From Streptomyces sp. NBC_01551 (GTDB lineage: Bacteria; Actinomycetota; Actinomycetes; Streptomycetales; Streptomycetaceae): a stretch of 64,000 bases of DNA. This document shows positions 35,548 to 55,345 of the stretch, in pieces. Made by a program: the position numbers and the translations under genes. The notes beneath the pieces are model-generated. The model saw only the letters and a program-made list of their open reading frames with translations, did no database searches and was not told where the DNA came from. Position 1 is the first letter of the stretch. Each line of letters begins with the position of its first letter. The stretch spans positions 5,173,501-5,237,500 of the forward strand of contig NZ_JAPEPX010000001.1 of NCBI RefSeq assembly GCF_026339935.1, written 5' to 3'.

Positions 35548-35579
35548 CTTGTCAGTGCAATTTCACATTACTATGTTAC
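35548..35579 (+). promoter_or_regulatory. promoter plus operator for collagenase (copy 1 of a 32-bp duplicated block)
   Basis: TTGTCA (-35, 35549-35554), exactly 17 bp, then TATGTT (-10, 35572-35577), a good housekeeping-type promoter reading towards the collagenase. The spacer holds the regulon element ATGTGAAATTGCAC in reverse (35555-35568). An identical 32-bp block lies at 47239-47270 before the peptide importer. Expected leader is about 95 nt. Confidence 0.7.
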
Positions 35580-35678
35580 AGCTCACACCGCGGCACGTTA
35601 ATCCCCGTCAAACGCCGCGTGACGCAGGGCAGTTCACGCACCACTTCCCCCACCTCCCCTCCCAACCAGGAGTTCTTG

Positions 35679-38078
35679 GTGTCTCAGCACAGAGCTGTGC
35701 GTACGTCCCTTCTCTCCGCCGCCGTGGCGGTGACCCTCCTGGCCTCCGCCGGCCAGGCCGTCAGCCAGGCCGCCGAGAACGGCGCCCCGGCCACCCCGGT
35801 CCCCGCCACCTTCGCGGCCGCCGCCCCCGCCGCGGGGCCCGCCGCCCCCGGCGGGAACCCGTTCGACGAGGTCGACCGCCTCGCGAACGCCAAGGAGGCC
35901 GTCCCGGCCCCCGCCCCGGCCCCGGGCGGCAAGGCCGTCACCGACGCCCGGGTGCCCGGCGCCGCCACGGCCGCGGCCGCGCCCGCCGAACGCACCGAGA
36001 AGAGCCGCAAGTCGGCGTCCGCCGCGCCCACCGCGCGCGGCGTCGCCGCGGGCGTCCCCTGCACCCTTGACGGGATCACGGCCCTTTCCCCCGAGCAGTT
36101 CGCCGACTTCCTCGGCGACCAGGCCGTCCTCGCCGACGGCTGCCTGCGCGGGCTGATCTGGACCTGGGACGCGCGCCTCGCGCCCGTCATGTCCGACGCC
36201 CACGTGCAGGCCGTCTCCCGCCGGATATCCAGCCTGGCCGCCGCCCACGACGGCCGTAACTCCTCGCACCTGGAGGAGATGTTCACGTACCTGCACGCCG
36301 TCGCCTACCACGACTACTCGCGCGACGAGATCGACGTCACCGACGCCCCGACCGTCGACGCCATGCGCCGGGCCGTCGCCGACTTCGGTGACGCCGCCCG
36401 CACCTTCGACGCCACCGGCTCCAACGCCCGGACCCTGCGCGAGGCCCTCTACGCCGCCAGCGCGCCGGGCCTGCGCCAGCACCAGCTCGGCCTGATCAAG
36501 AAGGTCCTGGCCACCATGGACGCGTCGCACTCCGCGACGAACCAGGACCCGGCCTGGGGCGGCGCGGCCCTCGCCGCCCTCTCCGTCAACTACCTCGGCG
36601 TCTACCCGGGCAACCAGGACGCCGCCTTCCACGCGGCGGTGGCCGGGGACGCCTCGTACCGCGCCGCCTTCAAGGCCTTCGCCGGGTACACCCACCTCAA
36701 GGGCACCACCAACGCCTGGGTGGTCCGCGACGCCCTCGGCGAGTACGGCCGCTTCGGCCAGGTCGACGCCCTCAAGGGCCAGACCGTCGCCGACCTCGGC
36801 GCCCTGCTGGAGAGCGTGAAGGCCGGCTTCGGCAACGGCAGCGAGCCGTGGGCCAAGATCGTCTCCTGGCTCAACTTCTACGAGGCCTGCAAGCCGTACG
36901 GGGTGTGCAAGGAGGACATCGAGAAGCAGCTCTTCCCCTACACCTACTCCTACGACAACGGCGCCATCAAGGTCCGCACCGCCCTGGACCAGGCCACCGT
37001 CGACCAGCTCTACTACGCGAGCAAGCAGGTCAAGTCCCAGTACCACCGGGTCCTGGGCACCGAGCAGCCGCTCGCCGGGGACCCCAACACCACGCTGAAC
37101 ATCGTGCTGTACGCCTCCCGCGCCGACTACGAGAACTACCACCCGATCCTGACCGGCTACGGCACCAACAACGGCGGCATCTACATCGAGAACGGCGCCA
37201 CCTTCTACACCTACCAGCGCCGCGTGCCGCAGGACTCCTCCCTCACGCTGGAAGAGCTCTTCCGCCACGAGTACACGCACTACCTCAACGGCCGCTACGC
37301 CGTCCCCGGCTTCTTCGGCGAGGGCCCCTGGTACGAGGGCGACCGCACCACCGCCATGGACGAGGGCACCGCCGAGTTCTTCGACGGCGCCACCCGCGAC
37401 AACGGCATCGCCGTCCGCAAGTCCCTGGTCAAGAGCGTCATCAGCGACACCGCCGGCGGCGGCCCGCGCATGAGCGTCGAGCAGCTGCTGAACGCCACCT
37501 ACGACGGCGACGGCTTCCGCTTCTACAGCTACGCCGGCACCTTCTTCGAGTTCCTGTGGACCGAGAAGCCCTCGCTGCTGCGCGAGATGTACACCCACCT
37601 GCGCGCGGGCGACGTCGCCGGCTACGACGCCTGGCGCCACCGGATGGGCGCCGACAGCTACCTCCAGCGCGACTACGACCGCTTCCTGGACGCGCAGATC
37701 GCCAAGGTGGACCAGCTCTACGTCCCGAACACCACCTTCACGCCCAACGGCCAGCTGCGCGACTCCGCGCTCGCCTCGGTGAAGTCGAGCTTCGCGACGG
37801 CCACCTACAACACCCCGGACTGCGTGGAGAACGGCGCGGCCGGCAAGCGCCGGTTCGTCTGTACGGGGCGCATCACCGCGAACCTGAAGAACTGGCGCAG
37901 CGACGACCAGAACTTCAAGGACATGTCCGAGACGGTCGACTACTTCATCCTCGACCGGGCGGGCGCGGCCTCCAACAACCTGGCCGACATGAACTGCTCC
38001 TTCGGCCCGGTGGAGATCTGGGACAACAAGAAGGCGGGCACGTCGAGTTACAGCTGCGACGGCCCGCTGCGCGGCTGA
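35679..38078 (+). CDS. secreted M9-family collagenase
   Basis: Extracellular zinc metalloprotease of 799 residues in the microbial collagenase family M9, which cleaves triple-helical collagen. After a signal peptide (MSQHRAVRTSLLSAAVAV...) and an Ala/Pro-rich linker, the N-terminal activator domain and catalytic domain follow. The zinc motif is HEYTH (H530, E531, H534) in LFRHEYTHYLNGRY, with the third ligand Glu in MDEGTAEFFDGA about 28 residues later. I see no typical C-terminal PKD repeat; a cysteine-containing tail ends the protein. GTG 35679 was chosen for its AGGAG site and the signal peptide. It heads the collagen-use island and carries its own regulated promoter. Confidence 0.9.
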   Translation: MSQHRAVRTSLLSAAVAVTLLASAGQAVSQAAENGAPATPVPATFAAAAPAAGPAAPGGNPFDEVDRLANAKEAVPAPAPAPGGKAVTDARVPGAATAAAAPAERTEKSRKSASAAPTARGVAAGVPCTLDGITALSPEQFADFLGDQAVLADGCLRGLIWTWDARLAPVMSDAHVQAVSRRISSLAAAHDGRNSSHLEEMFTYLHAVAYHDYSRDEIDVTDAPTVDAMRRAVADFGDAARTFDATGSNARTLREALYAASAPGLRQHQLGLIKKVLATMDASHSATNQDPAWGGAALAALSVNYLGVYPGNQDAAFHAAVAGDASYRAAFKAFAGYTHLKGTTNAWVVRDALGEYGRFGQVDALKGQTVADLGALLESVKAGFGNGSEPWAKIVSWLNFYEACKPYGVCKEDIEKQLFPYTYSYDNGAIKVRTALDQATVDQLYYASKQVKSQYHRVLGTEQPLAGDPNTTLNIVLYASRADYENYHPILTGYGTNNGGIYIENGATFYTYQRRVPQDSSLTLEELFRHEYTHYLNGRYAVPGFFGEGPWYEGDRTTAMDEGTAEFFDGATRDNGIAVRKSLVKSVISDTAGGGPRMSVEQLLNATYDGDGFRFYSYAGTFFEFLWTEKPSLLREMYTHLRAGDVAGYDAWRHRMGADSYLQRDYDRFLDAQIAKVDQLYVPNTTFTPNGQLRDSALASVKSSFATATYNTPDCVENGAAGKRRFVCTGRITANLKNWRSDDQNFKDMSETVDYFILDRAGAASNNLADMNCSFGPVEIWDNKKAGTSSYSCDGPLRG

Positions 38079-38124: not shown

Positions 38125-38173
38125 ACGGGCGAGCACGCGGCCCGCCTGGGCGACCCTAGGCACTGACTAAAGA

Positions 38174-38187
38174 ATGTGACATATTAC
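38174..38187 (+). promoter_or_regulatory. regulon element before the D-hydroxyproline oxidase gene
   Basis: ATGTGACATATTAC, a copy of the shared 14-bp element, ends only 4 bp before the GTG start. With no ribosome-binding site in between, the mRNA is probably leaderless and the element covers the core promoter. Confidence 0.6.
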
Positions 38188-38191
38188 TGCC

Positions 38192-39400
38192 GTGCCCAAG
38201 AGACATCCCCTGGACGTCGTGATCATCGGCGCCGGCGTCGTCGGCGCCGCGTGCGCGTACTACGCCGGGCGTGCCGGACTCGCCGCGGCCGTCGTGGACC
38301 GCGGCCCCGTCGCGGGCGGCACGACCGGTGCCGGGGAAGGCAACCTGCTCGTCTCCGACAAGGAGGCGGGACCCGAGCTGGACCTCGCGCTGTGGTCGGC
38401 GGGGCTGTGGCGGGAACTCGCCGCCGTGCTCCCGGAGCGGATCGAGTACGAGGCCAAGGGCGGCCTCGTCGTCGCCCCGGACGAGACCACCCTCACGGCG
38501 CTGCGCACCTTCGCCGACGGCCAGCGCGCCGCCGGGGTGGAGGCCGTCGAGGTCGGGGCGGGCGAACTCCGCGAGCTGGAGCCGCATCTGGCCCCGGGGC
38601 CGGCCGGCGGCTTCCACTACCCGCAGGACTCCCAGGTGCAGCCCGCCCAGGCGGCGGCGCGACTGCTGGCGGCGTCGGGGGCCGAGGTGTACCTGGGGGA
38701 GGAGGTCACGGGCTTCCTGCTGGAGCGCGGGGCGGTACGGGGGGTGCGGACCGGGAAGCGGGAGCTGCGGGCCCCGGCCGTGGTCAACGCCGCCGGCACC
38801 TGGGGCGGCCGGATCGCCGAACTCGCCGGGGTGGGCCTGCCGGTGCTGCCGCGCCGGGGCTTCGTCCTGGTGACCGAACCGCTGCCGCGGGTGGTGCGGC
38901 ACAAGGTGTACGCCGCCGACTACATCGCGGACGTGGCCAGCGGCTCCGCCGCGCTGCAGTCCTCGGCGGTGGTCGAGGGCACGCCGTCGGGGCCGGTGCT
39001 GATCGGCGCGACCCGGGAGCGGGTGGGCTTCGACCGGAGTCTGTCGGTGGAGGCGCTGCGCCGGCTCGCCGGCCAGGCGGCGGCGCTGTTCCCGGTGCTG
39101 GCCGACGTCCGGGTGATGCGGGCCTACCACGGGTTCAGGCCCTACCTTCCGGACCACCTCCCGGCGATCGGGCCCGACCCGCGGGTGCCGGGGCTGCTGC
39201 ACGCCTGTGGCCACGAGGGCGCGGGCATCGGTCTGGCCCCCGCGACGGGGCTGCTGATCGCGGCCGCCCTCACCGGCGCCGAACCCCCGGTACCCCTGCT
39301 GCCGTTCCGCCCGAACCGCTTCGGCCCGGCCGCCTCGGGTCCGGACCGTCCAGGCCCGGCCGGGTCCGGCCCGGCCGCCGGTCAGGGCTCCGTCCGATGA
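38192..39400 (+). CDS. FAD-dependent oxidase/dehydrogenase, D-hydroxyproline dehydrogenase beta-like
   Basis: DAO-superfamily flavoprotein of 402 residues. FAD motif VVIIGAGVVGAACAYY is at the N-terminus; a second DAO block, AAALFPVLADVRVMRAYHGFRPYLPD, and HACGHEGAGIGLAPATG lie near the C-terminus. With the small ferredoxin-like and the large FAD/NAD-type subunits encoded next, it matches the three-part bacterial D-hydroxyproline dehydrogenase that oxidises cis-4-hydroxy-D-proline to 1-pyrroline-4-hydroxy-2-carboxylate. The start is GTG 38192, right behind the regulon element. The ferredoxin-like gene follows after 85 bp. Confidence 0.85.
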   Translation: MPKRHPLDVVIIGAGVVGAACAYYAGRAGLAAAVVDRGPVAGGTTGAGEGNLLVSDKEAGPELDLALWSAGLWRELAAVLPERIEYEAKGGLVVAPDETTLTALRTFADGQRAAGVEAVEVGAGELRELEPHLAPGPAGGFHYPQDSQVQPAQAAARLLAASGAEVYLGEEVTGFLLERGAVRGVRTGKRELRAPAVVNAAGTWGGRIAELAGVGLPVLPRRGFVLVTEPLPRVVRHKVYAADYIADVASGSAALQSSAVVEGTPSGPVLIGATRERVGFDRSLSVEALRRLAGQAAALFPVLADVRVMRAYHGFRPYLPDHLPAIGPDPRVPGLLHACGHEGAGIGLAPATGLLIAAALTGAEPPVPLLPFRPNRFGPAASGPDRPGPAGSGPAAGQGSVR

Positions 39401-39485: not shown

Positions 39486-39815
39486 ATGAGCCAGAACCCG
39501 CGCAACCGCTCGCCCCGCGCCCTCGTCGGTGGGGACCCGGAAGCCACGTACATGCTCCGCTTCGACGGCCGGGACCTGCCCGCACAGACGGGCCAGAGCA
39601 TCGCCGCCGTGCTGTGGAGCGCCGGGATCCTCGCCTGGCGCACCACCCGCGAGACCGGCGCCCCGCGCGGCGCCTTCTGCGGGATCGGGAGCTGTTACGA
39701 CTGCCTCGTCATCGTCAACGGCCGTCCGAACCAGCGCGCCTGCCTGGTGCCCGCCCGGCCCGGGGACACCGTCACCACCCAGGAGGGAACCGGCCGTGCC
39801 GACCTCGCCGTCTGA
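39486..39815 (+). CDS. [2Fe-2S] subunit of D-hydroxyproline dehydrogenase
   Basis: Ferredoxin-like protein of 109 residues with the plant-type [2Fe-2S] pattern C65-x4-C70-x2-C73 and C86 (FCGIGSCYDCLV, QRACLVPA). Such small subunits (HcnA/OoxA-like) pass electrons between the two flavin subunits of opine and hydroxyproline dehydrogenases. The 3' end overlaps the next gene by 20 bp, so subunit synthesis is coupled. AAGGAGAACGG precedes the ATG. Confidence 0.88.
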   Translation: MSQNPRNRSPRALVGGDPEATYMLRFDGRDLPAQTGQSIAAVLWSAGILAWRTTRETGAPRGAFCGIGSCYDCLVIVNGRPNQRACLVPARPGDTVTTQEGTGRADLAV

Positions 39816-41226
39816 CCGGGAAGCCGACCTCGTCGGCCTCGCCGACCTCGCCGTCGTCGGCGCCGGCCCCGCCGGGCTCGCCGCCGCCGTCGCGGCCGCC
39901 GGGCTCGGCCTGCGCGTCACCGTCCTCGACGCCGGGGAGCGCCCCGGCGGCCAGTACTACCGCCACCCCGCCCCCGGCCTCGGCGCCGCCCGCCCCGAGG
40001 CCCTGCACCACGACTGGGCCGACTTCGCCTCCCGCGAAGCCGCCCTGCGCGCCCACGAGGCGGCGGGCCGCATCACGTACCTCCCCTTCCACCACGTCTG
40101 GACCGTGGTCCAGGACCGGCAGCGCTGGACCCTGCACGCCGTCGCCGGCCCCGAGGAGAGCGCCGCCGCCGTCCACGCCGAGGCCGTGCTGATCGCCACC
40201 GGGGCCTACGAGCGCCAACTGCCCTTCCCGGGCTGGACCCTGCCCGGCGTGGTCGGGGCCGGCGGCGCCCAGGCCATGCTCAAGGGCGGCCTCGTCCTGC
40301 CGGGGCGGCGGGTGGTCGTCGCCGGGAGCGGGCCGCTGCTGCTCGCCGTCGCCGGATCCCTCGCGGCCGCCGGGGCGCGGGTGCCCGCGGTCGTCGAGGC
40401 CGCCTCGTACTCCGGGTACGCCGGGCAGGCCCCCGCCCTGCTCCGCAACCCCGGCAAGATCGCCGAGGCGGCCACGTACGGCGGCGCGCTGCTGCGCCAC
40501 CACGTCCGGCTGCTCACCCGGCACGCCGTGACCGAGGCGCACGGCGCCGACCGGGTCGAGGCCGTGACGGTGGCCCGGCTGGACCGGGACTGGCGTCCGC
40601 TGCCGGGCACCGCCCGCCGGATCCCCTGCGACGCGGTCGCCGTCGGCCACGGCCTGGTGCCCCAACTGGAGCTGGCCACCGGGCTGGGCTGCGCCACCGC
40701 GCCCGCCGCCGACGGCACCGCCGCGCTGGAACTGGACGCCCGGCAGCGGACCTCCGTACCCGGCATCTGGTCCGCCGGGGAGACCGGAGGCATCGGCGGG
40801 GCCCAACTGGCCATGACCGAAGGGGAGATCGCCGCCTTCGCGATCGCCGGGGTGCCCGTCCCGGCCGCGCTGGTGCGCCGCCGCGCCCGGCTGCGCGCCT
40901 TCGCCGCCGCGATGGGCGCCGCGCACCGCCCCGGCGACGGCTGGACCGGCTGGCTGCGGGACGACACCGACGTGTGCCGCTGCGAGGAGGTCCCGGCCGG
41001 CTGTATCCGGGAGGCCGTCGAAGACCTCGGCGCCGGGGACGCCCGTACCGTCAAACTGCTCACCCGCGCCGGAATGGGCTGGTGCCAGGGCCGGATGTGC
41101 GGCCCGGCCGTCGCCGCCCTCGCGGGCGAAGCGTCGTCCTCCCCGGGCGCCGCGCCCGACCGGCGGCCGCTGTCCTGCCCGGTCCCGCTGCGCCACCTCG
41201 CCGAACTTCCGGCCACGGAGGCCTGA
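39796..41226 (+). CDS. FAD/NAD(P)-binding subunit of D-hydroxyproline dehydrogenase
   Basis: Flavoprotein of 476 residues similar to HcnB/OoxA-type subunits. FAD motif DLAVVGAGPAGLAAAVAA is near the N-terminus; a second nucleotide motif, VVVAGSGPLLLAVAGSLA, lies mid-protein. The C-terminus has a BFD-like [2Fe-2S] cysteine set (VCRCEEVPAG and WCQGRMCGP). I chose GTG 39796, which lies inside the previous gene and has an AGGAGG site. This completes the three-subunit dehydrogenase with the two upstream genes. Confidence 0.86.
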   Translation: MPTSPSDREADLVGLADLAVVGAGPAGLAAAVAAAGLGLRVTVLDAGERPGGQYYRHPAPGLGAARPEALHHDWADFASREAALRAHEAAGRITYLPFHHVWTVVQDRQRWTLHAVAGPEESAAAVHAEAVLIATGAYERQLPFPGWTLPGVVGAGGAQAMLKGGLVLPGRRVVVAGSGPLLLAVAGSLAAAGARVPAVVEAASYSGYAGQAPALLRNPGKIAEAATYGGALLRHHVRLLTRHAVTEAHGADRVEAVTVARLDRDWRPLPGTARRIPCDAVAVGHGLVPQLELATGLGCATAPAADGTAALELDARQRTSVPGIWSAGETGGIGGAQLAMTEGEIAAFAIAGVPVPAALVRRRARLRAFAAAMGAAHRPGDGWTGWLRDDTDVCRCEEVPAGCIREAVEDLGAGDARTVKLLTRAGMGWCQGRMCGPAVAALAGEASSSPGAAPDRRPLSCPVPLRHLAELPATEA

Positions 41227-41244: not shown

Positions 41245-41281
41245 TTGTGGCCGCCTCACACCGCCAAGTAAAATGTCACAC
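41245..41281 (+). promoter_or_regulatory. promoter with regulon element before the deaminase-epimerase operon
   Basis: TTGTGG (-35, 41245-41250), 18 bp, TAAAAT (-10, 41269-41274). The shared element, GTGTGACATTTTAC in reverse (41268-41281), overlaps the -10 and the expected start site, so binding would block transcription. The gene starts at 41303 behind GGGAG. Confidence 0.65.
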
Positions 41282-41302
41282 ACCACTCTAGGGAGCTCTC
41301 TC

Positions 41303-42220
41303 ATGACCCACGCGCCCACCCCCGCGCCCACCCGCACCCGCCCCTGGCACGGCATCATGGTCGCCACCGCGCTGCCGCTGCGCGAGGACCTCAGCGTCGA
41401 CCACGACGCGTACGCCGAGCACGTGGCCTGGCTGATCGCCAACGGCTGCGACGGCGTCGTCCCCAACGGCTCCCTCGGCGAGTACCAGACCCTCACCGAC
41501 GCCGAACGCGCCCAGGTCGTCCGCACCGCCGTCGAGGCGGCGGGCGACGGCGCCCGCGTCATGCCCGGCGTCGCCGCCTACGGCAGCGCCGAGGCCCGCC
41601 GCTGGGCCGACCAGGCCGCCGAGGCCGGCGCCGGCTCCGTCCTGCTGCTGCCCCCCAACGCCTTCCGCGCCGACGAGGCGACCGTCCGCGCCCACTACGC
41701 CGAGGTCGCCGCGGCCGGGCTGCCCGTCGTCGCGTACAACAACCCCATCGACACCAAGGTGGACCTGACCCCGGCGCTCCTGGCCCGGCTCCACGCAGAC
41801 GGCAGCATCGTCGCCGTCAAGGAGTTCAGCGGCGACGTGCGCCGCGCCTACGAGATCGCCGAACTCGCCCCGGGCCTCGACCTGCTCATCGGCGCCGACG
41901 ACGTCCTCCTCGAACTCGCCCTCGCCGGCGCCGTCGGCTGGATCGCCGGCTACCCCAACGCGCTCCCGAACTCCTGCGCCACCCTCTACCGGGCCGCCGT
42001 CGCCGGGGACCTCGACACCGCGCTGCCGCTCTACAAGTCCCTGCACTCGCTGCTGCGCTGGGACTCCAAGACCGAGTTCGTCCAGGCCATCAAGCTCTCC
42101 ATGGACCTGGCCGGCCGCCCCGGCGGCGCCACCCGCCCGCCGCGCTTCCCGCTCACCGGCGAGATCGAGGCCGCCGTCCGCGCCGCCACCGAGAAGGCCC
42201 TCGCCGAGGGCCTCAACTAG
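41303..42220 (+). CDS. 1-pyrroline-4-hydroxy-2-carboxylate deaminase (DHDPS superfamily)
   Basis: Class I aldolase-fold enzyme of the dihydrodipicolinate synthase superfamily, 305 residues. Schiff-base lysine K173 in IVAVKEFSGD and tyrosine Y145 in VAYNNP are present; GDGVVPNGSLGE-like GCDGVVPNGSLGE marks the substrate loop. In hydroxyproline catabolism this member deaminates the product of D-hydroxyproline oxidation to alpha-ketoglutarate semialdehyde. It is followed 17 bp later by the epimerase and shares a transcript. Context, rather than sequence alone, separates it from true DapA. Confidence 0.88.
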   Translation: MTHAPTPAPTRTRPWHGIMVATALPLREDLSVDHDAYAEHVAWLIANGCDGVVPNGSLGEYQTLTDAERAQVVRTAVEAAGDGARVMPGVAAYGSAEARRWADQAAEAGAGSVLLLPPNAFRADEATVRAHYAEVAAAGLPVVAYNNPIDTKVDLTPALLARLHADGSIVAVKEFSGDVRRAYEIAELAPGLDLLIGADDVLLELALAGAVGWIAGYPNALPNSCATLYRAAVAGDLDTALPLYKSLHSLLRWDSKTEFVQAIKLSMDLAGRPGGATRPPRFPLTGEIEAAVRAATEKALAEGLN

Positions 42221-42237: not shown

Positions 42238-43242
42238 ATGCGTACGCGCCACATCTACCACGCGGTGGACTCGCACACCGAGGGCATGCCGACCCGGGTC
42301 ATCACCGGGGGAGTCGGGGTGGTCCCCGGCGCCACCATGGCCGAGAAGCGGCTCCACTTCATCGAGCACATGGACCAGGTCCGGACCCTGCTCATGTACG
42401 AGCCGCGCGGGCACGCCGCGATGAGTGGCGCCATCCTGCAGCCCCCCACCCGGCCCGACGCCGACTTCGGCGTGCTCTACATCGAGGTGTCGGGCCTGCT
42501 GCCGATGTGCGGACACGGCACCATCGGCGTCGCCACCGTGCTCGTCGAGACCGGCATGGTGCCCGTGGTCGAGCCGGTCACCACCGTCCGGCTCGACACC
42601 CCCGCCGGCCTGGTCAGCGTGGACGTCCGCGTGGAGGACGGGGCGGCCACCGCCGTCACCCTCACCAACGTCCCGTCCTTCTGCGCCGGGCTCGACCTGA
42701 AGGCCGAGGTGCCCGGCTTCGGCACGGTCACCTACGACCTCGCCTACGGCGGCAACTTCTACGCCTTCGTCGAACTCGAAGCCCTCGGCCTGCCCTTCGA
42801 CCGCGCCCGCAAGGACGACCTGATCGCCGCCGGGCTCGCGATCATGGAAGCGGTCAACGCCTCCGACGACCGCCCCGTGCACCCCGAGGAACCCTCCATC
42901 GCCGGGGTCAAGCACGTCTACCTCGCCGCCCCCGGCTCCGACGCCCGCCGCTCCCGGCACGCCATGGCCATCCACCCCGGCTGGTTCGACCGCTCGCCCT
43001 GCGGTACGGGGACCAGCGCCCGGATGGCCCAGCTGCACGCCCGCGGCCTGCTGGAGACCGGAGCCGACTTCGTCAACGAGTCCTTCATCGGCACCGAGTT
43101 CACCGGCCGGCTGATCGCGGAGACCACCGTCGGCGGCCTCCCGGCCGTCGTCCCCACCGTCACCGGGCGGGCCTGGATCACCGGCACCGCCCAGTACTTC
43201 CTCGACCCGGCCGACCCCTTCCCCGGAGGGTTCCTGCTGTGA
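42238..43242 (+). CDS. 4-hydroxyproline 2-epimerase
   Basis: Proline-racemase-superfamily enzyme, 334 residues. Both catalytic cysteines are present: C91 in LLPMCGHGTIG and C255 in DRSPCGTGTS, as required for racemases and epimerases. In this setting it converts trans-4-hydroxy-L-proline to cis-4-hydroxy-D-proline, the substrate of the upstream dehydrogenase. GGGGGAACTGG precedes the ATG. The stop overlaps the next paralogue's start (GTGA, 43239-43242). Confidence 0.9.
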   Translation: MRTRHIYHAVDSHTEGMPTRVITGGVGVVPGATMAEKRLHFIEHMDQVRTLLMYEPRGHAAMSGAILQPPTRPDADFGVLYIEVSGLLPMCGHGTIGVATVLVETGMVPVVEPVTTVRLDTPAGLVSVDVRVEDGAATAVTLTNVPSFCAGLDLKAEVPGFGTVTYDLAYGGNFYAFVELEALGLPFDRARKDDLIAAGLAIMEAVNASDDRPVHPEEPSIAGVKHVYLAAPGSDARRSRHAMAIHPGWFDRSPCGTGTSARMAQLHARGLLETGADFVNESFIGTEFTGRLIAETTVGGLPAVVPTVTGRAWITGTAQYFLDPADPFPGGFLL

Positions 43243-46020: not shown

Positions 46021-46374
46021 GCCGAGGAGCTGGAGCAGGGCGCGGGCGGCGGCGAGGGCGGGCGCGCCGATCTCTCCCATGAGGGCGGCGACGCCGGCGA
46101 CGGTCCGCAGCGCGTTGCCCCGCTCCGCCGGGGCCGCGGCCGGGTCGGCCGTGATCGCGGGGAGGGCTTCGTCGATGCGCCGCACGTCCGCCTGTGGAGC
46201 GTGCGTGCGCAGGTCCGTCAGCAGGTCCACGAGCTCCCGGACGGCCCGCTCCAGCGCGGGGTCGGCCTGCCGGGGGCCGACGGACGTCCCGCCGTGGACG
46301 ACCATGCCGGTGTTGCCCTCGCCGTCGTGCATGTTCACGACGTTGCCGTAGTAGGTGTTGCCGTCCCCGCTCAC
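46015..46374 (-). CDS. small protein with N-terminal G/N/M motif
   Basis: Hypothetical protein of 119 residues. Residues 6-24 (NTYYGNVVNMHDGEGNTGM) repeat the motif at the C-terminus of the upstream membrane protein; the rest is helical and Ala-rich (ERAVRELVDLLTDLRTHAP, followed by a long predicted helix). No catalytic motif is seen. Start GTG 46374 overlaps the upstream TGA (GTGA), so the two are translated together. The shared motif suggests that the proteins interact through it. Confidence 0.65.
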   Translation of the reverse strand: MSGDGNTYYGNVVNMHDGEGNTGMVVHGGTSVGPRQADPALERAVRELVDLLTDLRTHAPQADVRRIDEALPAITADPAAAPAERGNALRTVAGVAALMGEIGAPALAAARALLQLLGG

Positions 46375-47093: not shown

Positions 47094-47238
47094 GCTTCCC
47101 CCTGAGATGGAACCGCTTCCGAGTGGAGACTCATTAAGCGGCGGCCACCTCAGGCCCGCAAGGCGAAAACCGGCCCCGCGCCAACTCGATGCGGCCGATG
47201 GGGTTTTGGACACGGCTGGATAACGGCGTTACCAACCC

Positions 47239-47270
47239 CTTGTCAGTGCAATTTCACATTACTATGTTAC
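47239..47270 (+). promoter_or_regulatory. promoter plus operator for the peptide importer (copy 2 of the 32-bp block)
   Basis: Identical over 32 bp to 35548-35579: -35 TTGTCA (47240-47245), 17 bp, -10 TATGTT (47263-47268), with the regulon element in reverse at 47246-47259. Similarity continues for a few bases beyond (TCACA). The importer ATG is 43 bp past the -10. Confidence 0.72.
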
Positions 47271-47310
47271 CGGTCACATCATAAAGCGCGGCCCTTCACT
47301 GGAGTGACCC

Positions 47311-49062
47311 ATGACCAAGCGCACCCAACTCGCCCTCGCCACCGGCCTGGTGGCGGCTCTCGCACTCGGTGCCTCCGGCTGCTCCGACCCCAAGAAGGGC
47401 TCCGCCAAGGGCAACGGCTCCGGTGCGAGCAACCCCGCCGCCGCCAACGACGGCAAGATCCTCGGCGGCACCCCGGTCAAGGGCGGGACCCTGACCGTCC
47501 TGTCCAACCAGGACTTCTCCCACCTCGACCCCGCCCGCAACTGGACGATGCCGACGATGGACTTCGGCACCCGCCTCCTCTACCGCACGCTCGTCACCTT
47601 CAAGGCCGAGCCCGGCAAGGCCGGCAGCGAGCTGGTCCCCGACCTCGCCACCGACCTCGGCACCTCCTCCGACGGCGGCAAGACCTGGACCTTCACCCTC
47701 AAGGAGGGCGTGAAGTACGAGGACGGCTCGCCCATCAAGGCGCAGGACATCAAGTACAACGTCGAGCGCTCCTTCGCCCCCGACCTCACCGGCGGCCCCG
47801 ACTACGCCGCCCAGTACCTGGCCGGCGGCGAGGGCTACAAGGGCCCCCTCCAGGGGCAGCACCTCGACTCCGTGAAGACCCCCGACGACCGCACGATCGT
47901 CTTCGAACTGAAGCGGCCCGTCGCCGAGTTCTCCGCGACCGCCACCCTCCCCACCTTCGCGCCCGTGCCCCAGTCGCAGGAGAAGGGCACCCAGTACGAC
48001 GCCCGCCCGTTCTCCTCCGGCCCGTACAAGATCGAGACGTACGACCGGGACAAGAAGCTCGTCCTGGTCCGCAACGAGCACTGGGACGCCAAGACCGACC
48101 CCGTCCGCAAGGCGTACCCGGACAAGTTCGTGGTCGTCATGGGCCTCAAGGGCGGCCAGATCGACGACCGGATCATCGCGGGCGAAGGCGCCGACGCCTC
48201 CGCCGTCCAGTACGCCGACATGCGCCCGGAGAGCGCGCCCAAGGTGCTCCCGAAGCCGGACGTCAAGTCTCGCCTGCTCGCCGAGTCCCAGGGCTGTACC
48301 GAGATGCTCCACCTCAACAACTCCCGCGCCCCCTTCGACGACCCCAAGGTCCGCGAGGCCATGCAGTACGCCGTCGACAAGGAGGCCGTGATCACCGCGG
48401 GCGGCGGTCCGGCCCTCAACGAGGTCGCCACCGCCTACCTGCCCCCGGCCCTCACCGGCGGCAAGCAGGCCGACACCCTGAAGATCGCGCCGTCGGGCGA
48501 CCCGGCCAAGGCCAAAGAACTCCTCAAGGCCGCCGGCAAGGACAAGCTCAAGGTCTCCCTCGCCGTCTCCACCGGGGACAAGGGCAAGGCCGAGGCCATC
48601 CAGCAGGGCCTGTCCCGGGCCGGCGTCGAGGTCGTCATCGACACCGTCGACCCGGGCGCGTACTACGACGTCATCGGCGACCTCTCCACCACCCCCGACA
48701 TGACCCTCACCGGCTGGTGCCCCGACTACCCCTCCGGCTCCACCTGGATCCCCTTCGTCTTCGACGGCCGCACCGTCAAGGACAAGGGCAACCAGGGCAA
48801 CTACAGCCAGTTCCGCGACGACGCGACGATGAAGCGCATCGACGAGATCAACGCCATGGCCGACGCCCGGCAGGCCAACGAGGCCTGGATGAACCTCGAC
48901 GCCGAGATCATGAAGAAGTCCCCGTCCATCCCGGTCCTGCTGGAGCGCAAGCCGCTGCTCGTCGGCCCCAACATCGCCGGCGCCTTCGGCCACCCGGTGT
49001 GGACCGGCACCGTCGACTACGGCACGGTCGGCCTCAAGGACCCCTCGAAGAGCCAGGGCTGA
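47311..49062 (+). CDS. oligopeptide ABC transporter substrate-binding lipoprotein
   Basis: SBP family 5 (DppA/OppA) protein, 583 residues. The lipobox LGASGC places the lipidated cysteine at C24. The family core is visible in DPARNWTMPTMDFGTRLLYRTL, split by lobes, and FSSGPYKIETYDRDKKLVLVRNEHWD. It captures peptides at the cell surface; here probably collagen-derived oligopeptides, because it shares an identical promoter/operator with the collagenase. The permease and ATPase genes follow after 22 bp. Confidence 0.9.
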   Translation: MTKRTQLALATGLVAALALGASGCSDPKKGSAKGNGSGASNPAAANDGKILGGTPVKGGTLTVLSNQDFSHLDPARNWTMPTMDFGTRLLYRTLVTFKAEPGKAGSELVPDLATDLGTSSDGGKTWTFTLKEGVKYEDGSPIKAQDIKYNVERSFAPDLTGGPDYAAQYLAGGEGYKGPLQGQHLDSVKTPDDRTIVFELKRPVAEFSATATLPTFAPVPQSQEKGTQYDARPFSSGPYKIETYDRDKKLVLVRNEHWDAKTDPVRKAYPDKFVVVMGLKGGQIDDRIIAGEGADASAVQYADMRPESAPKVLPKPDVKSRLLAESQGCTEMLHLNNSRAPFDDPKVREAMQYAVDKEAVITAGGGPALNEVATAYLPPALTGGKQADTLKIAPSGDPAKAKELLKAAGKDKLKVSLAVSTGDKGKAEAIQQGLSRAGVEVVIDTVDPGAYYDVIGDLSTTPDMTLTGWCPDYPSGSTWIPFVFDGRTVKDKGNQGNYSQFRDDATMKRIDEINAMADARQANEAWMNLDAEIMKKSPSIPVLLERKPLLVGPNIAGAFGHPVWTGTVDYGTVGLKDPSKSQG

Positions 49063-49084
49063 GGCATACGGGAACCCCGACACC

Positions 49085-50089
49085 ATGACCACCACCGCAT
49101 CCGGTGCCGGCGGCCGGCAGGCCCCGCCCCCGGCTCCGGGCGGGGCACCGGCCCCCGACGCCGTCAAGGGCGGTCGCGCGGAGGCGGCGACCGGCAGCAG
49201 CCCCTGGCGGCTCGCCCGGCGGGAACTGCGCCGCCGCCCCGCCGTCCGCGTCAGCCTCTGCGTCGTCCTCCTCTTCGTCCTGATGGCCGCCACCGCCCCC
49301 TGGCTGGGCGCGCTCGGCGGCTGGTCCCCCGAGGAGTTCGACAAGAGCGCCGTCGACCCCTACCTCGGGGGCCAGCCCCTCGGCTCCTTCGGCGGGATCA
49401 GCCCCGAGCACTGGCTCGGCGTCGAACCCGTCACCGGCCGCGACCTGTTCGCCCGCGTCGTCAGCGGAGCCCAGGTCTCCCTCCTGATCGCGTTCGCCGC
49501 CACCGCCATCGTCGTCCTCACCGGCACCGCCGCCGGAATCGCCGCCGGCTACTTCGGCGGCCGCACCGACGCCGCCCTGTCCCGGCTGATGGACCTGACC
49601 ATGTCCTTCCCCTCGCTGATCTTCATGATCGCGATGCTGTCCGTGGCCAAGGACGTCAACCGGATCGCCCTCATGACCGCCGTCATCGGCGTCTTCGGCT
49701 GGCCCGGCGTCGCCCGCGTCGTCCGCGGCCAGACCCTCTCCCTCAAACACCGCGAATACGTCGACGCCGCCCGCGTCGGCGGATCGACCTCCTGGCGGAT
49801 CCTCACCCGCGACATCCTCCCGGGCGTCAGCGGCCCGGTCATCGCCTACACCACCCTGCTGATCCCCGGCATGATCAGCACCGAGGCCGCGCTCAGCTAC
49901 CTCGGCGTCGGAGTCCGCCCGCCCACCCCGTCCTGGGGCCAGATGATCGCCGAGTCCGTGGCCTACTACGAGACCGACCCCATGTACTTCGTCATCCCGA
50001 GCGTCTTCCTCTTCCTCGCCGTCCTCGCCTTCACCCTGCTCGGCGACGCCCTGCGCGACATCCTCGACCCGAGGGGCGGCCGCACGTGA
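49085..50089 (+). CDS. peptide ABC transporter permease, DppC type
   Basis: Inner-membrane permease (334 residues) with a ~50-residue Pro/Ala-rich N-terminal extension, an N-terminal membrane segment (VSLCVVLLFVLMAATAPWLG), the EHWLGVEPVTGRDLFARVV block typical of DppC and the EAA loop EYVDAARVGGSTSWRILTRD. DppC precedes DppB here, the reverse of the common order. Its stop overlaps the next start (GTGA, 50086-50089). Confidence 0.9.
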   Translation: MTTTASGAGGRQAPPPAPGGAPAPDAVKGGRAEAATGSSPWRLARRELRRRPAVRVSLCVVLLFVLMAATAPWLGALGGWSPEEFDKSAVDPYLGGQPLGSFGGISPEHWLGVEPVTGRDLFARVVSGAQVSLLIAFAATAIVVLTGTAAGIAAGYFGGRTDAALSRLMDLTMSFPSLIFMIAMLSVAKDVNRIALMTAVIGVFGWPGVARVVRGQTLSLKHREYVDAARVGGSTSWRILTRDILPGVSGPVIAYTTLLIPGMISTEAALSYLGVGVRPPTPSWGQMIAESVAYYETDPMYFVIPSVFLFLAVLAFTLLGDALRDILDPRGGRT

Positions 50090-51072
50090 TCGTCTACCTC
50101 GCCCGCCGCCTGCTCGCCCTCGCCGGCGTGCTCCTCGCCATCGCCGCCGTCACGTTCCTCATCTTCTACGTCCTGCCCTCCGACCCGGCGGCCGCCGCCT
50201 GCGGCAAGACCTGCAGCGCCGAACGGCTGGCCGACGTACGCGAGTACCTCGGCCTCGACCAGCCGCTGTGGCGCCAGTTCGCCGACTTCCTCACCGGCAT
50301 CTTCACCGGCCGCACCCTCGGCAGCGGCCAGTACGCCGTCCAGTGCGACTTCCCGTGCCTGGGCTACTCCTACGAGAACTCCCTGCCCGTCTGGGACCTG
50401 CTCATGGACCGCCTCCCGGTCTCCGCCTCCCTCGCCGTCGGGGCCGCCGCCCTCTGGCTGGTCCTCGGCCTCGGCGCCGGTGTCACCGCCGCCCTGCGCA
50501 AGGACACCGTCACCGACAAGGCCCTGATGGTCGGCGCCGTCGCCGCCGCCTCCCTGCCCGTCTACTTCACCTCCGTGATGCTCATCTACGGGGTGATCCG
50601 CATCGCCGGACTCCTGCCCTACCCCACCTACCAGGCCTTCACCGACAACCCGCTCGGCTGGGCTTCCAACCTCCTGCTGCCCTGGACCGCGCTCGCCCTG
50701 CTCTACGCCGCCATGTACGCCCGCCAGAGCCGGGGTTCGATGATCGAGGCGATGGCCGAGCCGTACATCCGCACCGCCCGCGCCAAGGGCATGCCCGAGC
50801 GCACCGTCGTCGTCAAACACGGGCTGCGCTCCGGGATGACCCCGATCCTGACCATCTTCGGCATGGACCTCGGCAGCCTGCTCGCCGGAGCCGTCATCAC
50901 CGAGTCCATCTTCGGACTCCCCGGCATCGGGCGGCTGTTCTACGGGGCGCTGGTCAGCTCCGACCAGCCCGTCGTCCTCGGGGTGACCCTGCTCGCCGCC
51001 TTCTTCATCGTCGTCGCCAACCTCGCCGTCGACCTCCTGTACGCCGTCATCGACCCGAGGGTGAGGTACTGA
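50086..51072 (+). CDS. peptide ABC transporter permease, DppB type
   Basis: Second permease (328 residues). The N-terminal segment MIVYLARRLLALAGVLLAIA, FLIFYVLPSDPA and the EAA loop PYIRTARAKGMPERTVVVKH are typical of DppB. An insertion with cysteines (ACGKTCSAERL and VQCDFPCLGYS) in the external loop is unusual for the family and could form disulfides outside the cell. Start GTG 50086; the stop overlaps the ATPase start (TGATG). Confidence 0.9.
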   Translation: MIVYLARRLLALAGVLLAIAAVTFLIFYVLPSDPAAAACGKTCSAERLADVREYLGLDQPLWRQFADFLTGIFTGRTLGSGQYAVQCDFPCLGYSYENSLPVWDLLMDRLPVSASLAVGAAALWLVLGLGAGVTAALRKDTVTDKALMVGAVAAASLPVYFTSVMLIYGVIRIAGLLPYPTYQAFTDNPLGWASNLLLPWTALALLYAAMYARQSRGSMIEAMAEPYIRTARAKGMPERTVVVKHGLRSGMTPILTIFGMDLGSLLAGAVITESIFGLPGIGRLFYGALVSSDQPVVLGVTLLAAFFIVVANLAVDLLYAVIDPRVRY

Positions 51073-52145
51073 TGGCCGCCCTGCTCGAAGTACGCGATCT
51101 GCGCGTCACCTTCTCCACCCCGCGCGGCTCCGTACGGGCCGTCGACTCGCTCGGGTTCACCGTCGAGGCCGGGCGCACCCTCGGCATCGTCGGGGAATCC
51201 GGCTCCGGCAAGTCCGTCACCTCGCTCGCCGTCATGGGCCTGCACCGGGGCGCCGAGATCGGCGGCTCCATCGCCCTGGACGGCCAGGAGCTCACCGGCC
51301 TGTCCGAGAAGGAGCTGTCCCGGCTGCGCGGCCGGAAGATGGCCATGATCTTCCAGGACCCGCTCAGCAGCCTGCACCCCTATTACACGGTCGGCGAGCA
51401 GATCGCCGAGCACTTCCGGGTCCACTTCAAGGCCGGCCGGGCCGCCGCGCGCAAACGGGCCGTCGACATGCTCGGCGAGGTCGGCATCCCGCAGCCGGAA
51501 CGCCGGGCGGGGGAGTACCCCCACCAGTTCTCCGGCGGCATGCGCCAGCGCGCCATGATCGCGATGGCGCTGGCCTGCGAGCCCGAGCTGCTGATCGCCG
51601 ACGAGCCCACCACGGCCCTCGACGTCACCGTGCAGGCGCAGATCCTGGAGCTGATCGCCCGCCTCCAGCAGGAGCGCGGCCTCGGCGTCGTGATGATCAC
51701 CCATGACCTGGGTGTCGTCGCCCGCGTCGCCCACGAGGTGCTGGTCATGTACGGGGGCCGGGCCGCCGAACAGGCCCCGGTCGACGAGCTGTTCGCCGAC
51801 CCCGCCCACCCGTACACCCGGGGCCTGCTGGACTCGCTGCCCCGGCTCGACGACGCCGACGACGAACCCCTGCGGGCCATCCCCGGCTCCCCGCCGTCCT
51901 TGCTGGCCCCGGCCCCGGGCTGCGCGTTCGCCCCGCGCTGCCACGTCGCCGCCGCGGGCTCCCCCGAGCAGCGCCGCCGCTGTGCCACCGACCGCCCCGA
52001 GCTGCGGCCCCAGGGGACGGCCCGGCGCACCGCCGCATGCCATTTCGCGGGGCCCGGCGTCGCGCCGACCGCCTCGACCGCCTCGAACGCCTCGACCGCC
52101 CCGCGCGCCACGAGCGCTCCGACCGCCCCGGAGGCGTCCCGATGA
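51072..52145 (+). CDS. peptide ABC transporter ATP-binding protein, DppD type
   Basis: ABC ATPase of 357 residues. Walker A is GESGSGKS, the signature is [16 protein letters not shown], Walker B is [12 protein letters not shown], followed by [10 protein letters not shown]. The C-terminal oligopeptide-transporter domain carries the cysteine motif [13 protein letters not shown] plus later cysteines, which in this family can bind an Fe-S cluster. A Thr/Ala/Ser-rich tail ends the protein. The stop overlaps the next ATG (ATGA). Confidence 0.92.
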
Positions 52146-53164
52146 CCGTAGAGGCCCGCCCCCCGGACACCACCGCACGGCCCGACCGGGCCGGGACGGA
52201 TCCGGCAACGCCGACCGAGCCGCTGCTGCGGGTGCGGGACCTCACCATGACCTTCCCCGGCAGGCGATCGGCGCCCGTGCGCGCCGTGGACGGGGTCTCC
52301 TTCGACCTGGCGGCCGGCGAAACCCTCGGCCTCGTCGGGGAATCGGGCTGCGGGAAGTCCACCACCGGCCGGATGCTGGTGCGGCTGTTGGAACCCACCT
52401 CCGGCAGCATCCGCTTCGACGGCCGGGACATCAGCCGGCTCTCCCAGCGCGCCCTGCGGCCGCTGCGGCGGAACATCCAGATGGTGTTCCAGGACCCGCA
52501 CTCCTCCCTCAACCCCCGCCAGACGGTCGCCCGGATCATCTCCGACCCGCTGCTCGTGCGCGGTGTGAGCGCGGCCGACGCCCGCCGCCGGGCCGCCGAG
52601 CTGATGGAGCTCGTCGGACTGATCCCCGAACACATCGACCGCTACCCGCACGAGTTCTCCGGCGGCCAGGCACAGCGCATCGGCATCGCCCGCTCGCTCG
52701 CCACCAGCCCCCGGCTGATCGTCGCGGACGAACCGGTCTCCGCGCTCGACGTCTCCGTCCAGGCGCAGATCGTCAACCTGATGGAGCGGCTGCGCGCCGA
52801 ACTGGGCCTGGCCTACGTGTTCATCGCGCACGACCTGTCCGTCGTCAAACGGGTCAGCGACCGCGTCGCCGTCATGTACCTCGGCCGGATCGTCGAGATC
52901 GGCGACAAGAAGTCGCTGTACGAGAACCCCCAGCACCCGTACACCCGGGCGCTGTTGTCCGCCGTACCGCTGCCGGATCCGGCGGCCGAGCGGCGGCGCG
53001 AGCGGATCGTGCTGCTCGGCGACCCGCCGAGCCCGGCCGCCCCGCCTCCGGGCTGCACCTTCCACCCGAGGTGCCCCAAGGCGCAGGACATCTGCCGCAC
53101 GGAGCGCCCGCTGCTCCAGGTCACCGCCTCACGTGAGGTGGCATGTCACTTCCCCGGTGACTGA
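52142..53164 (+). CDS. peptide ABC transporter ATP-binding protein, DppF type
   Basis: Second ATPase (340 residues). Walker [10 protein letters not shown], signature [16 protein letters not shown], Walker [13 protein letters not shown] and IAHDLSVVK are visible, and the C-terminus has [20 protein letters not shown] 52142 overlaps the previous stop. It is the last gene of the importer operon; a perfect 15-bp hairpin follows 25 bp after the stop. Confidence 0.92.
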
Positions 53165-53189
53165 CGGGGATCCAGGGGAAGGAAGAGGA

Positions 53190-53224
53190 GGACCCCGGAG
53201 CCGACACGATCGGCTCCGGGGTCC
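53190..53224. terminator. perfect 15-bp bidirectional terminator hairpin
   Basis: GGACCCCGGAGCCGA (53190-53204) and TCGGCTCCGGGGTCC (53210-53224) form a perfect 15-bp stem with a CACGA loop, between the convergent importer operon and peptidase gene. It likely ends transcription from both directions. Confidence 0.8.
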
Positions 53225-53241
53225 TTCGCGTGCGTGACGCC

Positions 53242-55317
53242 TCAGAGGGCGAGTTCGCGGCGGAAGAACTCCAGCTCCAGGGCCATCAGCTTCTCCCGCG
53301 TCCCGCCCGGGGTCATGTGCGTGACACCGGGCAGCGCCAGCAGCTGGTGCGGGCGGCCCGCGTCCGTCAGGGCCTGGGACAGCCGCAGGGTGTGCGAGGG
53401 GTGGACGTTGTCGTCGGCCAGACCCGTGACCAGCAGCAGCGGCCGGGTCAGACGCGGGGCGTCCGGCACGAGCGAGTCCCGCTCGTAGACCTCGGGGTGG
53501 TCCTGGGGCAGGCCCAGGTACCGCTCGGTGTACGCCGTGTCGTACTGCCGGAAGTCGGTCGGCGCGGCCCCGGCGGCCGCCGCGTGGAAGACGTCCGGGC
53601 GGCGCAGCACCGCGAGCGCGGACAGGTAACCGCCGTAGGACCAGCCGCGGATCCCGACCCGGCCGAGGTCCATGTCCGGGTGGCGGGCGGCGAGCGCGTG
53701 CAGCGCCGCGACCTGGTCCTCCAGGGTGACCTCGGAGAAGCCGCGGTACATGGCGTGGGTGAAGGCGGGCGAGACGTACGGGGTGCCGCGGTTGTCGACG
53801 GTGACCACCGCGAAGCCCTGGTCGGCCCACCACTGGCGGGCCTGCCAGCGGCGCGGCTCCGCGCACACGTCCTGGAAGCCGGGGCCCCCGTACCCGTCCA
53901 CGAGCACCGGCAGCCGCTGCCCGGGCACGTGTCCGCGCGGCAGGACCAGCGCGGTCGGGATCCCGTGCTCGGTGACCCTCTCCAGCACCGGGACGACCCG
54001 GTAGGGCAGCGGCTCGCTCAGGTCGGCGGGAGCGGGCCGCTGCCGCCCGTCGGGGGCGCGCAGGGCGCGCCGTATCCCGTCCGCGTCGGCCGAGGTGAGC
54101 AGCAGCAGCTCCCCGGCGCAGGCGCTCACGGAGTGCACCCCGGGCCCGTCCGCGACCGGCGTCAGCGCACCGGTGCCGGGGTCCAGCAGCAGCACCTGCT
54201 GCTCGGCGGGGTCGCCCTGCCCGGCCTCGACCAGCAGCCCGCCCCGGTGGACGCCGGCCACGCGGCGGACCTGGATCCCGTTCCCGGTGCGCGGTTCGCC
54301 GTCCACGGCGAGGGCGCGGGCGGCCCCGCCCGGCGTGTCGGCGCTGGTGAGCATCCGCCCGTCGGGGAGCCGGGCCGGGGTGCCGGGCAGCGGGTCCACC
54401 CACTGGGGGTGCGTGGTGCGGGACAGCTCCCGGGTGCGCCCGGTGTCCGGGTCGGCGCTGAGCAGCAGCACGCTCCGCTGGAGCCGGTCCTGCACCGTCA
54501 GCAGGATCTCCCCGGCCGGTTCCCAGCTCACGTCGGAGACGTACGGGTGGCTCACCGCGTCCCAGTCGAGCCGGATCCGCCGCTCGCCGGGCCCGAGCAC
54601 CCACAGCTGGACCTCGGCGTTCGGACCGCCCGCCTCGGGGTACGCGAAGTCCTCGGCCGGGAGCTCGGGGTGCGCCGGGTCGGCGAAATGGCGCCGCTGG
54701 AGGGCGGATTCGTCGACCCGGGCGGCCAGCAGCGCGGTCCCGTCGGGGGACCACCAGTGCCCCCGGGAGCGGCCCAGCTCCTCGGCCGCGGCGAACTCGG
54801 CGACGCCCCAGCGGGCCCCGTCGTCGGGGCTGACCCGGCCGCCCGGCGCGGTGTACAGCGCGTCCGCGCTGACGTAGGCGACGCGGCCGCCGTCGGCGTC
54901 GGGCCGGGGGTCGAAGACGGGTCCGGCGGCGGGGATCTCCTTGGGCTCCCCGACGGGCCGTCCGCTCCCGTCGCAGGTGACCGCGTACAGCAGCCCGTAG
55001 AGCGCGAAGACGGCGGTGCGGCCGTCGCCGGAGAGCGCGTACGAGCCGATGCCCGCGGCGACGAGCCGGATCCGCTCGCGCAGCCGCCGCTCGGCGACGG
55101 GCAGGGTGCCGGGCTCGGGGCACAGTTCGCGGGGGTCGGCAAGGCGGGTCTCGGTGCCGGTCGCGGTGTCGAGGACCCAGAGGCCGTCGAAAGCGTCGGT
55201 GGGACCGGTGGAGCGGAGGAACCAGAGCAGCCGGCCGTCGTCCCCGAAGGAGAACGCGCGAGGCGCGCCGTACGTGAAGCGGGCGGTGCTCGCGGAGAGC
55301 CTGAGGAAATCATCCAT
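53242..55317 (-). CDS. S9-family prolyl oligopeptidase/dipeptidyl-peptidase-like protein
   Basis: Serine peptidase of 691 residues. An N-terminal beta-propeller-like part (DPPIV_N type) precedes an alpha/beta-hydrolase domain with catalytic S560 in RGWSYGGYL, D635 in GLADDNVH and H667 in PGVTHMTPG. There is no signal peptide, so it acts inside the cell and would release X-Pro dipeptides or cleave after proline in imported collagen peptides. ATG 55317 (MDDFLRLS) was chosen; there is no ribosome-binding site and the regulon element starts 8 bp upstream, so translation may be leaderless. Confidence 0.9.
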   Translation of the reverse strand: MDDFLRLSASTARFTYGAPRAFSFGDDGRLLWFLRSTGPTDAFDGLWVLDTATGTETRLADPRELCPEPGTLPVAERRLRERIRLVAAGIGSYALSGDGRTAVFALYGLLYAVTCDGSGRPVGEPKEIPAAGPVFDPRPDADGGRVAYVSADALYTAPGGRVSPDDGARWGVAEFAAAEELGRSRGHWWSPDGTALLAARVDESALQRRHFADPAHPELPAEDFAYPEAGGPNAEVQLWVLGPGERRIRLDWDAVSHPYVSDVSWEPAGEILLTVQDRLQRSVLLLSADPDTGRTRELSRTTHPQWVDPLPGTPARLPDGRMLTSADTPGGAARALAVDGEPRTGNGIQVRRVAGVHRGGLLVEAGQGDPAEQQVLLLDPGTGALTPVADGPGVHSVSACAGELLLLTSADADGIRRALRAPDGRQRPAPADLSEPLPYRVVPVLERVTEHGIPTALVLPRGHVPGQRLPVLVDGYGGPGFQDVCAEPRRWQARQWWADQGFAVVTVDNRGTPYVSPAFTHAMYRGFSEVTLEDQVAALHALAARHPDMDLGRVGIRGWSYGGYLSALAVLRRPDVFHAAAAGAAPTDFRQYDTAYTERYLGLPQDHPEVYERDSLVPDAPRLTRPLLLVTGLADDNVHPSHTLRLSQALTDAGRPHQLLALPGVTHMTPGGTREKLMALELEFFRRELAL

Positions 55318-55324
55318 GACAGAA

Positions 55325-55345
55325 GTGTGACATGTGAAATAGCAC
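55325..55345 (-). promoter_or_regulatory. regulon element before the prolyl peptidase gene
   Basis: ATGTGAAATAGCAC (55332-55345) differs from the collagenase element in one base; an overlapping GTGTGACATGTGAA (55325-55338) is a second, weaker copy. The pair overlaps the expected start region of the peptidase gene, and lies 57 bp from the divergent MFS gene, which may also respond. Confidence 0.65.

Follow-up and report, generated by a model that had tools for sequence, protein, structure and literature searches.

Putative HypR operators in a collagen- and hydroxyproline-use island of Streptomyces sp. NBC_01551

What binds a 14-bp element that recurs at six promoters of a single gene island? 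The island lies in a window of 64,000 bases from Streptomyces sp. NBC_01551 (whole genome G000, 7.05 Mb). The first-pass annotation placed the element at 35555, 38174, 41268, 45200, 47246 and 55332. All six copies were re-located at those coordinates and on the strands it gave, and every one of them falls at an island promoter, as claimed. The six elements are very probably operators of HypR, a FadR-subfamily GntR repressor encoded at 45262, which would shut off the island units and, when released, let them come on together. The basis for this reading is sequence, position, conservation and identity to a published footprint. By sequence, the regulator is one already described, HypR, as in Streptomyces coelicolor (Kotowska 2019). 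Its core targets were known as well; what is added is a longer list of targets and a model of the operator. Collagen digestion, peptide import and hydroxyproline breakdown appear to form one switchable gene set.

The element and the genes of the island

The pattern RYGTGAMATNNNAC has six exact matches in the window, all of them the known sites, so the remark that none lies elsewhere in the window holds. In 100 dinucleotide-preserving shuffles of the window, the mean was 0.03 and the maximum 1. When one mismatch is allowed, two extra window matches appear (expected mean 2.03): one at 53138, in the last codons of oppF, and one at 55325, which overlaps the 55332 site. The annotation had proposed a genome-wide motif scan as a check. 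G000 contains seven exact matches, six of them in the island, with no scatter of many copies, and the reversed pattern has none in the whole genome. The seventh, at C1:178127 in surroundings of 80% GC, is taken as chance. Because the pattern was fitted to the six sites themselves, the independent tests, namely the published footprint and the loci selected by HypR, weigh more. A tighter 14-mer, AYGTGAMATWKYAC, gives 85 genome matches with up to two mismatches (the six included) vs 59 for its reversed control, so weaker genome-wide sites are unusable. The position of the element relative to the promoter varies among the units, and both orientations occur.

The first putative operator, a 23-bp dyad (35553–35575, minus strand), lies within the spacer of a TTGTCA-17-TATGTT promoter, between two divergent genes. 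These genes encode an M24 peptidase of the aminopeptidase P type (pepP; 34119–35504, minus; Pfam PF00557 and PF05195) and an M9 collagenase (35679–38078, plus; PF01752 and PF08453; the ORF opens at 35619 and the start codon was chosen). A second box, GTGAGCTGTAAC (35575–35586, minus), stands 20 bp from the first. The putative operator of the hydroxyproline operon (38167–38189, plus) stops 2 bp short of the GTG start codon of the gene for a D-hydroxyproline dehydrogenase beta-like protein (DAO; 38192–39400, plus; PF01266). It is followed on the plus strand by genes for the gamma-like 2Fe-2S protein (39486–39815; PF13510 Fer2_4) and the alpha-like protein (39529–41226; PF07992 and PF04324) of the dehydrogenase. 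The alpha-like ORF opens within the gamma gene in another frame, and its true start is later. A putative operator at an internal promoter (41266–41288, minus) overlaps TAAAAT, a -10-like hexamer recognized by eye. The gene behind it encodes a pyrroline-4-hydroxy-2-carboxylate deaminase-like protein of the DHDPS family (41303–42220, plus; PF00701), and its start at 41303 is preferred because the ATG at 41273 sits inside the operator.

Three more plus-strand genes encode a 4-hydroxyproline epimerase-like protein with a Cys/Cys pair (42238–43242; PF05544), a second proline racemase family protein, also Cys/Cys (43239–44264; domain and active-site residues), and a pyrroline-2-carboxylate reductase-like protein of the ornithine cyclodeaminase/mu-crystallin family (44261–45205; below curated cut-offs). 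The operon, with the domains DAO, Fer2_4, Pyr_redox_2/Fer2_BFD, DHDPS and Pro_racemase, adjoins hypR (45262–45972, plus), whose putative operator is at 45193–45215 (plus). The second racemase-family protein has Cys at the tested active-site position in the window, and its motif DRSPCGSG is found in 44 of 45 relatives, the remaining one being missed by the regular expression. Its best NCBIfam score is to a dehydratase model, far below the cut-off. A trans-3-hydroxyproline branch is suggested by this gene and its reductase-like neighbour; given the Cys/Cys pair, it is not claimed.

Between hypR and the importer (45973–47243) there is an ORF, 46015–47013, without a Pfam match; in relatives, this gap is about 0.14 to 6 kb long. 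The putative operator of the peptide importer operon (47244–47266, minus) again lies in the spacer of a TTGTCA-17-TATGTT promoter, with a second box, GTGACCGGTAAC (47266–47277, minus), 20 bp from the first. The operon encodes an Opp/Dpp-type importer, with a peptide-binding protein (sbp), two permeases and two ATPases assigned by Pfam (47311–53164, plus). The last putative operator, a sequence match (55325–55347, plus), belongs to the divergent genes for an S9 peptidase of the prolyl oligopeptidase/DPP IV family (53242–55317, minus; PF00326 and PF00930 on the longer ORF 53242–56955) and an MFS transporter of the DHA2/EmrB type (55402–56973, plus; PF07690; TIGR00711 over its cut-off). Over about 20 kb, scanning for promoters gave four promoter-like sites vs a shuffle mean of 0.5, and in two of the four (pepP/collagenase and importer) the operator is inside the spacer. 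At 53189–53225, between the convergent oppF and S9 genes, there is a terminator-like hairpin of 17 pairs, an unusually long stem; the hairpin scan overall gave four matches vs 3.9 in shuffles.

The regulator and its predicted operator

The annotation had guessed at a FadR-type GntR protein whose gene carries one copy of the element, and it was right on both points. The 45262 protein contains PF00392 and PF07729 (FCD), the conserved contact residues are present, and the site at 45200 holds the footprint 11-mer TACAATGTCAC at 45202–45212 with no mismatch, its single occurrence in the window. PMC6608401 describes S. coelicolor HypR as a FadR-subfamily GntR protein whose footprint on its own promoter is 21 bp long, covers the -10 and includes TACAATGTCAC. 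The residues S51, T53, R56, R72 and N73 are present in the window HypR and in 80 of 80 relatives (best 80 of 325), and correspond, one position on, to the reported Ser50, Thr52, Arg55, Arg71 and Asn72. The closest solved sequences are 3fms and 3sxy, both GntR proteins; 3SXY is TM0439 (PMC4494728) and served as the modelling template in PMC6608401.

As described in PMC6608401, HypR of S. coelicolor A3(2) (SCO6294) represses the hydroxyproline operon SCO6289-93, the collagenase gene SCO5912, SCO5281 and itself. The two systems have in common the FadR-subfamily GntR gene beside the hydroxyproline operon, the identical 11-mer in the promoter of hypR, and the operon content of dehydrogenase beta, gamma and alpha, deaminase and epimerase. 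The collagenase gene and the hydroxyproline operon, targets there, are element-bearing here. Unlike S. coelicolor as presented in the parts of PMC6608401 drawn on here, collagenase, aminopeptidase P, importer, S9 peptidase and MFS genes are in one island with putative operators, and the operon has two extra genes, for the second racemase-family and the pyrroline-2-carboxylate reductase-like proteins. Also unlike S. coelicolor, kgd, the counterpart of SCO5281, has no site with up to two mismatches in a 3.5-kb stretch that takes in its start and the DNA upstream, and was rejected as a target in this genome. The annotation called the regulon local, and this stands for the present genome, where six of seven exact matches are in the island; it does not stand for S. 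coelicolor, where the collagenase target SCO5912 is not beside hypR. The hydroxyproline-linked regulon that it proposed fits the published footprint, the contact residues, the conserved orthologous promoters and the near-absence of exact matches elsewhere.

Outside the targets of the 2019 paper, the Opp importer, aminopeptidase P, S9 peptidase and MFS genes are new candidates. The main text of PMC6608401 does not contain "oligopeptide", and "peptidase" there refers to M9 collagenase domains only. SCO5911 shares the collagenase site with SCO5912 (PMC6608401), and aminopeptidase P might be the counterpart of SCO5911. HypR also bound promoter fragments of SCO7176, SCO7177, SCO7273 and SCO5315, where hypR loss had no effect or the promoter was inactive (PMC6608401), so a site alone is no proof of control. 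Among the matches listed (titles and abstract starts), no paper on the regulation of collagen use in Streptomyces was found beyond Kotowska 2019.

The 14-mer is an off-centre cut of a longer predicted operator, an imperfect 23-bp dyad. In 141 distinct 23-mers (45 after thinning), the best axis of symmetry is the G at the centre of ATGT-G-ACAT. Of the pairs formed between the outer arms (positions 5 to 11), 143 of 315 (45%) are complementary vs 20–31% in shifted controls. The ideal dyad CAGTGSTATGTGACATASCACTG is clearest in other Streptomyces; in this genome one arm is usually worn and the outer arms are weak. The published HypR logo from seven bound fragments, CTNTGC(A/C)ATGTCAC (PMC6608401), spans one arm and part of the core. 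The C-to-A form GTGAAAT, seen at four of the promoters (pepP/collagenase, importer and S9/MFS), is absent from the seven bound sequences tabulated there.

New here are the 23-bp dyad and, at the collagenase and importer promoters, the second box at a distance of 20 bp. In the class of collagenase, pepP and sbp sites, the second box has the form GTGA-N3-GTAAC exactly 20 bp away, with GTGA in 69 and GTAAC in 77 of 82 sites. In the window, the first box falls within the 17-bp spacer of TTGTCA-17-TATGTT, and the second overlaps the end of the -10. Operators of the FadR subfamily are likewise dyads with GT and AC boxes and an extra weaker box nearby. According to PMC4494728 (Suvorova et al. 2015), they are palindromes in which TKGT and ACMA boxes are usually 3 nt apart, or 2 nt in the HypR group, whereas the spacing here is 1 nt; the extra boxes lie 7–12 nt from the centre there vs 20 bp here. 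Like the HypR group, Sinorhizobium meliloti HypR is the same kind of GntR/FadR-like regulator of hydroxyproline genes, as cited in PMC6608401.

It can be proposed that a HypR dimer sits on the imperfect dyad, which in each unit overlaps the spacer between -35 and -10, the -10 itself or the region of the start; bound there, HypR would obstruct RNA polymerase at every one of the six promoters. The repressed set would comprise collagenase, aminopeptidase P, importer, S9 peptidase, MFS transporter, the hydroxyproline operon and hypR itself, with the operon held at two points, its start and the internal promoter. When hydroxyproline is in use, HypR would be released, and secreted collagenase, peptide import, prolyl peptidases and hydroxyproline breakdown would come on together. 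The whole collagen-use path would then be under one predicted operator set, and the sharper operator model (23-bp dyad, promoter-specific spelling and second box) could serve in finding HypR targets in Streptomyces; the remainder is a known regulator confirmed in another clade. As for the effector, L-Hyp in the medium induced the tested target promoters of S. coelicolor in the wild type only, yet L-Hyp, D-Hyp and L-Pro left in vitro binding unchanged (PMC6608401); our guess is therefore that a pathway intermediate is sensed. Zinc at 5 mM abolished HypR binding in vitro (PMC6608401).

Conservation among relatives and other explanations

The first sample was the best 80 of 325 confirmed loci, with the similarity of their HypR protein as the sole criterion. 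HypR is 77–97% identical in these close relatives, so part of the conservation is shared descent. The 14-mer has 289 matches in their 1,557,146 bases and the reversed pattern none; the orthologous regions, which the annotation had named as a place to look, do conserve the element. Each gene was scored with the motif GTGAMATNNNAC over the 300 bp before its start and the 60 bp after it; these gene counts, and those of the second sample below, omit genes that lie too close to the end of a locus or fall short of the limits set for identity and coverage. In the best 80 of 325 loci, the site is found before hypR in 79/80, D-Hyp dehydrogenase in 52/54, collagenase in 39/40, sbp in 37/38, pepP in 8/8, S9 peptidase in 16/18, deaminase in 52/64 and MFS in 10/16. 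An earlier assignment of sites to the nearest gene only gave lower counts in these loci (pepP 6/8, sbp 35/38). Six downstream gene kinds, scored in the same way in the same 80 loci, have the site in 0 of 264 cases (epimerase 0/66, second racemase 0/45, ocd 0/51, oppC 0/35, oppB 0/35 and oppF 0/32).

Each promoter maintains its own spelling. In these best 80 of 325 loci, it is ACGTGACATTGTAC in 79/79 hypR sites, ATGTGACATATTAC in 47/52 dehydrogenase sites and GTGTGACATTTTAC in 49/53 deaminase sites, and in the collagenase/pepP/sbp class it is ATGTGAAATTGCAC in 64 of 81 sites and ATGTGAAATTGTAC in the other 17. The gene order of the units differs between genomes and the sites are mostly kept: pepP is beside sbp in loci L149 and L157, and beside hypR in L073 and L083, where the sbp of L083 is without a site.

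In a wider sample of the genus, 98 of 121 genomes (own genome included) have a HypR match. Forty further loci were taken from these 98, 20 per strand, in descending ranking from 82% identity; earlier-fetched loci, contig-end matches, second HypR copies, G058 and G103 were left out, and L308 is still shortened by a contig end. The site is present before dehydrogenase in 22/22, collagenase in 6/6, sbp in 4/4 and pepP in 8/10, but only in 13/25 for deaminase and 19/40 for hypR. The lack of an exact site before hypR in 21/40 and deaminase in 12/25 of these loci is counted against the HypR reading. The controls are again without sites (epimerase 0/22, oppC 0/4, ocd 0/1), and 78 sites occur in 590,751 bases vs one for the reversed pattern.

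At position 72 of HypR in these 40 loci (L291–L330), sites of the GTGAAAT form are 20 of 46 with Arg and 0 of 32 with Pro. This co-variation of wing residue and operator is a lead only, confounded by relatedness and different target genes. Nine of the 121 sampled genomes have two strong HypR matches (G004, G015, G030, G057, G058, G103, G129, G131 and G135).

More distant genomes of the order contain ATGTGACATAGTAC before the dehydrogenase gene (L140–L145, a biased sample found by the pattern itself); HypR is 63–66% identical in L140–L143 and not in the fetched piece of L144 and L145. Loci L140–L159 were chosen for carrying the pattern, so their frequencies (hypR 9/16, pepP 3/7, deaminase 5/17 and dehydrogenase 19/20 with a site) are biased and not used as evidence.

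Another FadR-type GntR protein could bind or share the sites, so that the island would not be HypR's alone. One such protein is a 43%-identical paralogue at G000:C1:5359558, present in 11 of 12 genomes searched, with recognition-helix residues 51, 53, 54, 56, 57 and 73 the same as in HypR in all 11 copies compared. However, the wing residue corresponding to Arg72 is Pro in 11/11, no dyad within five mismatches lies near the paralogue in the regions scanned in five genomes, and the sites go together with hypR and the genes around it. S. coelicolor HypR has itself been shown to bind such a site (PMC6608401), and a share for the paralogue is quite improbable.

Similarly, the element might be merely a conserved promoter, i.e., a sigma factor site and not an operator. 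Two of the six elements are indeed in promoters whose hexamers are identical, and both hexamers are kept in 68 of 82 counted cases of the collagenase/pepP/sbp class. Yet the varying placement and both orientations of the element do not suit a sigma site, and the element equals the footprinted HypR site, so this explanation is extremely unlikely. For a global regulator such as Crp, the likeness is in TGTGA only, which resembles a Crp half-site. Seven exact matches per genome, six of them in one island, and a site presence that follows HypR targets across species make binding by Crp almost inconceivable. Operators of HypR, as stated at the outset, agree best with these observations.

Scattered dyads in other Streptomyces genomes

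A near-perfect 21–23-bp palindrome, AGTGSTATGTGACATASCACT, an ideal dyad of the HypR type, is found at tens of places in G354, G221, G300, G022, G314, G375 and G412, inside and between genes and often paired (e.g., L193, L197, L201, L203, L268 and L270). Of 392 genomes of the genus, 10 have exact ATGTGACATAGCAC: G354 has 24 copies, G221 11, G022 8, G300 7, G412 3, G375 2 and four more genomes one each; the reversed pattern occurs in none. Twelve genomes chosen after this survey were scanned for the 21-bp dyad with up to three mismatches. The strand-matches, which count each palindromic place about twice, are 82 in G354, 68 in G221, 48 in G300, 30 in G022, 28 in G314, 24 in G375 and 21 in G412, vs 1 in G000, 5 in G007, 1 in G013, 1 in G039 and 2 in G140. 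The reversed dyad gave none in all 12 genomes. Among 49 sites with up to two mismatches at 36 loci, 23 are within genes predicted by a crude codon-usage script, 16 are upstream within 400 bp and 10 are elsewhere. Some are paired 23–41 bp apart, and several neighbouring genes look by eye like ones for sugar transport or glycosidases.

With one mismatch, this dyad also matches the HypR site of the dehydrogenase gene in G354 and G221. A literature text search for ATGTGACATA, TATGTCACAT and GTGACATAGCAC within words returned only unrelated titles among the matches listed. It can be speculated, as an unlikely case, that HypR itself binds these dyads, in which event a dedicated collagen/hydroxyproline repressor would have turned into a genome-wide regulator within one group, or else that a second regulator has come to share its operator. 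The scattered dyads are the part that could surprise. In G007 (L285, C1:4200044), a long perfect inverted repeat with AGTGCAATGTTACATTGCACT lies just before a gene whose start looks by eye like that of the ornithine cyclodeaminase family.
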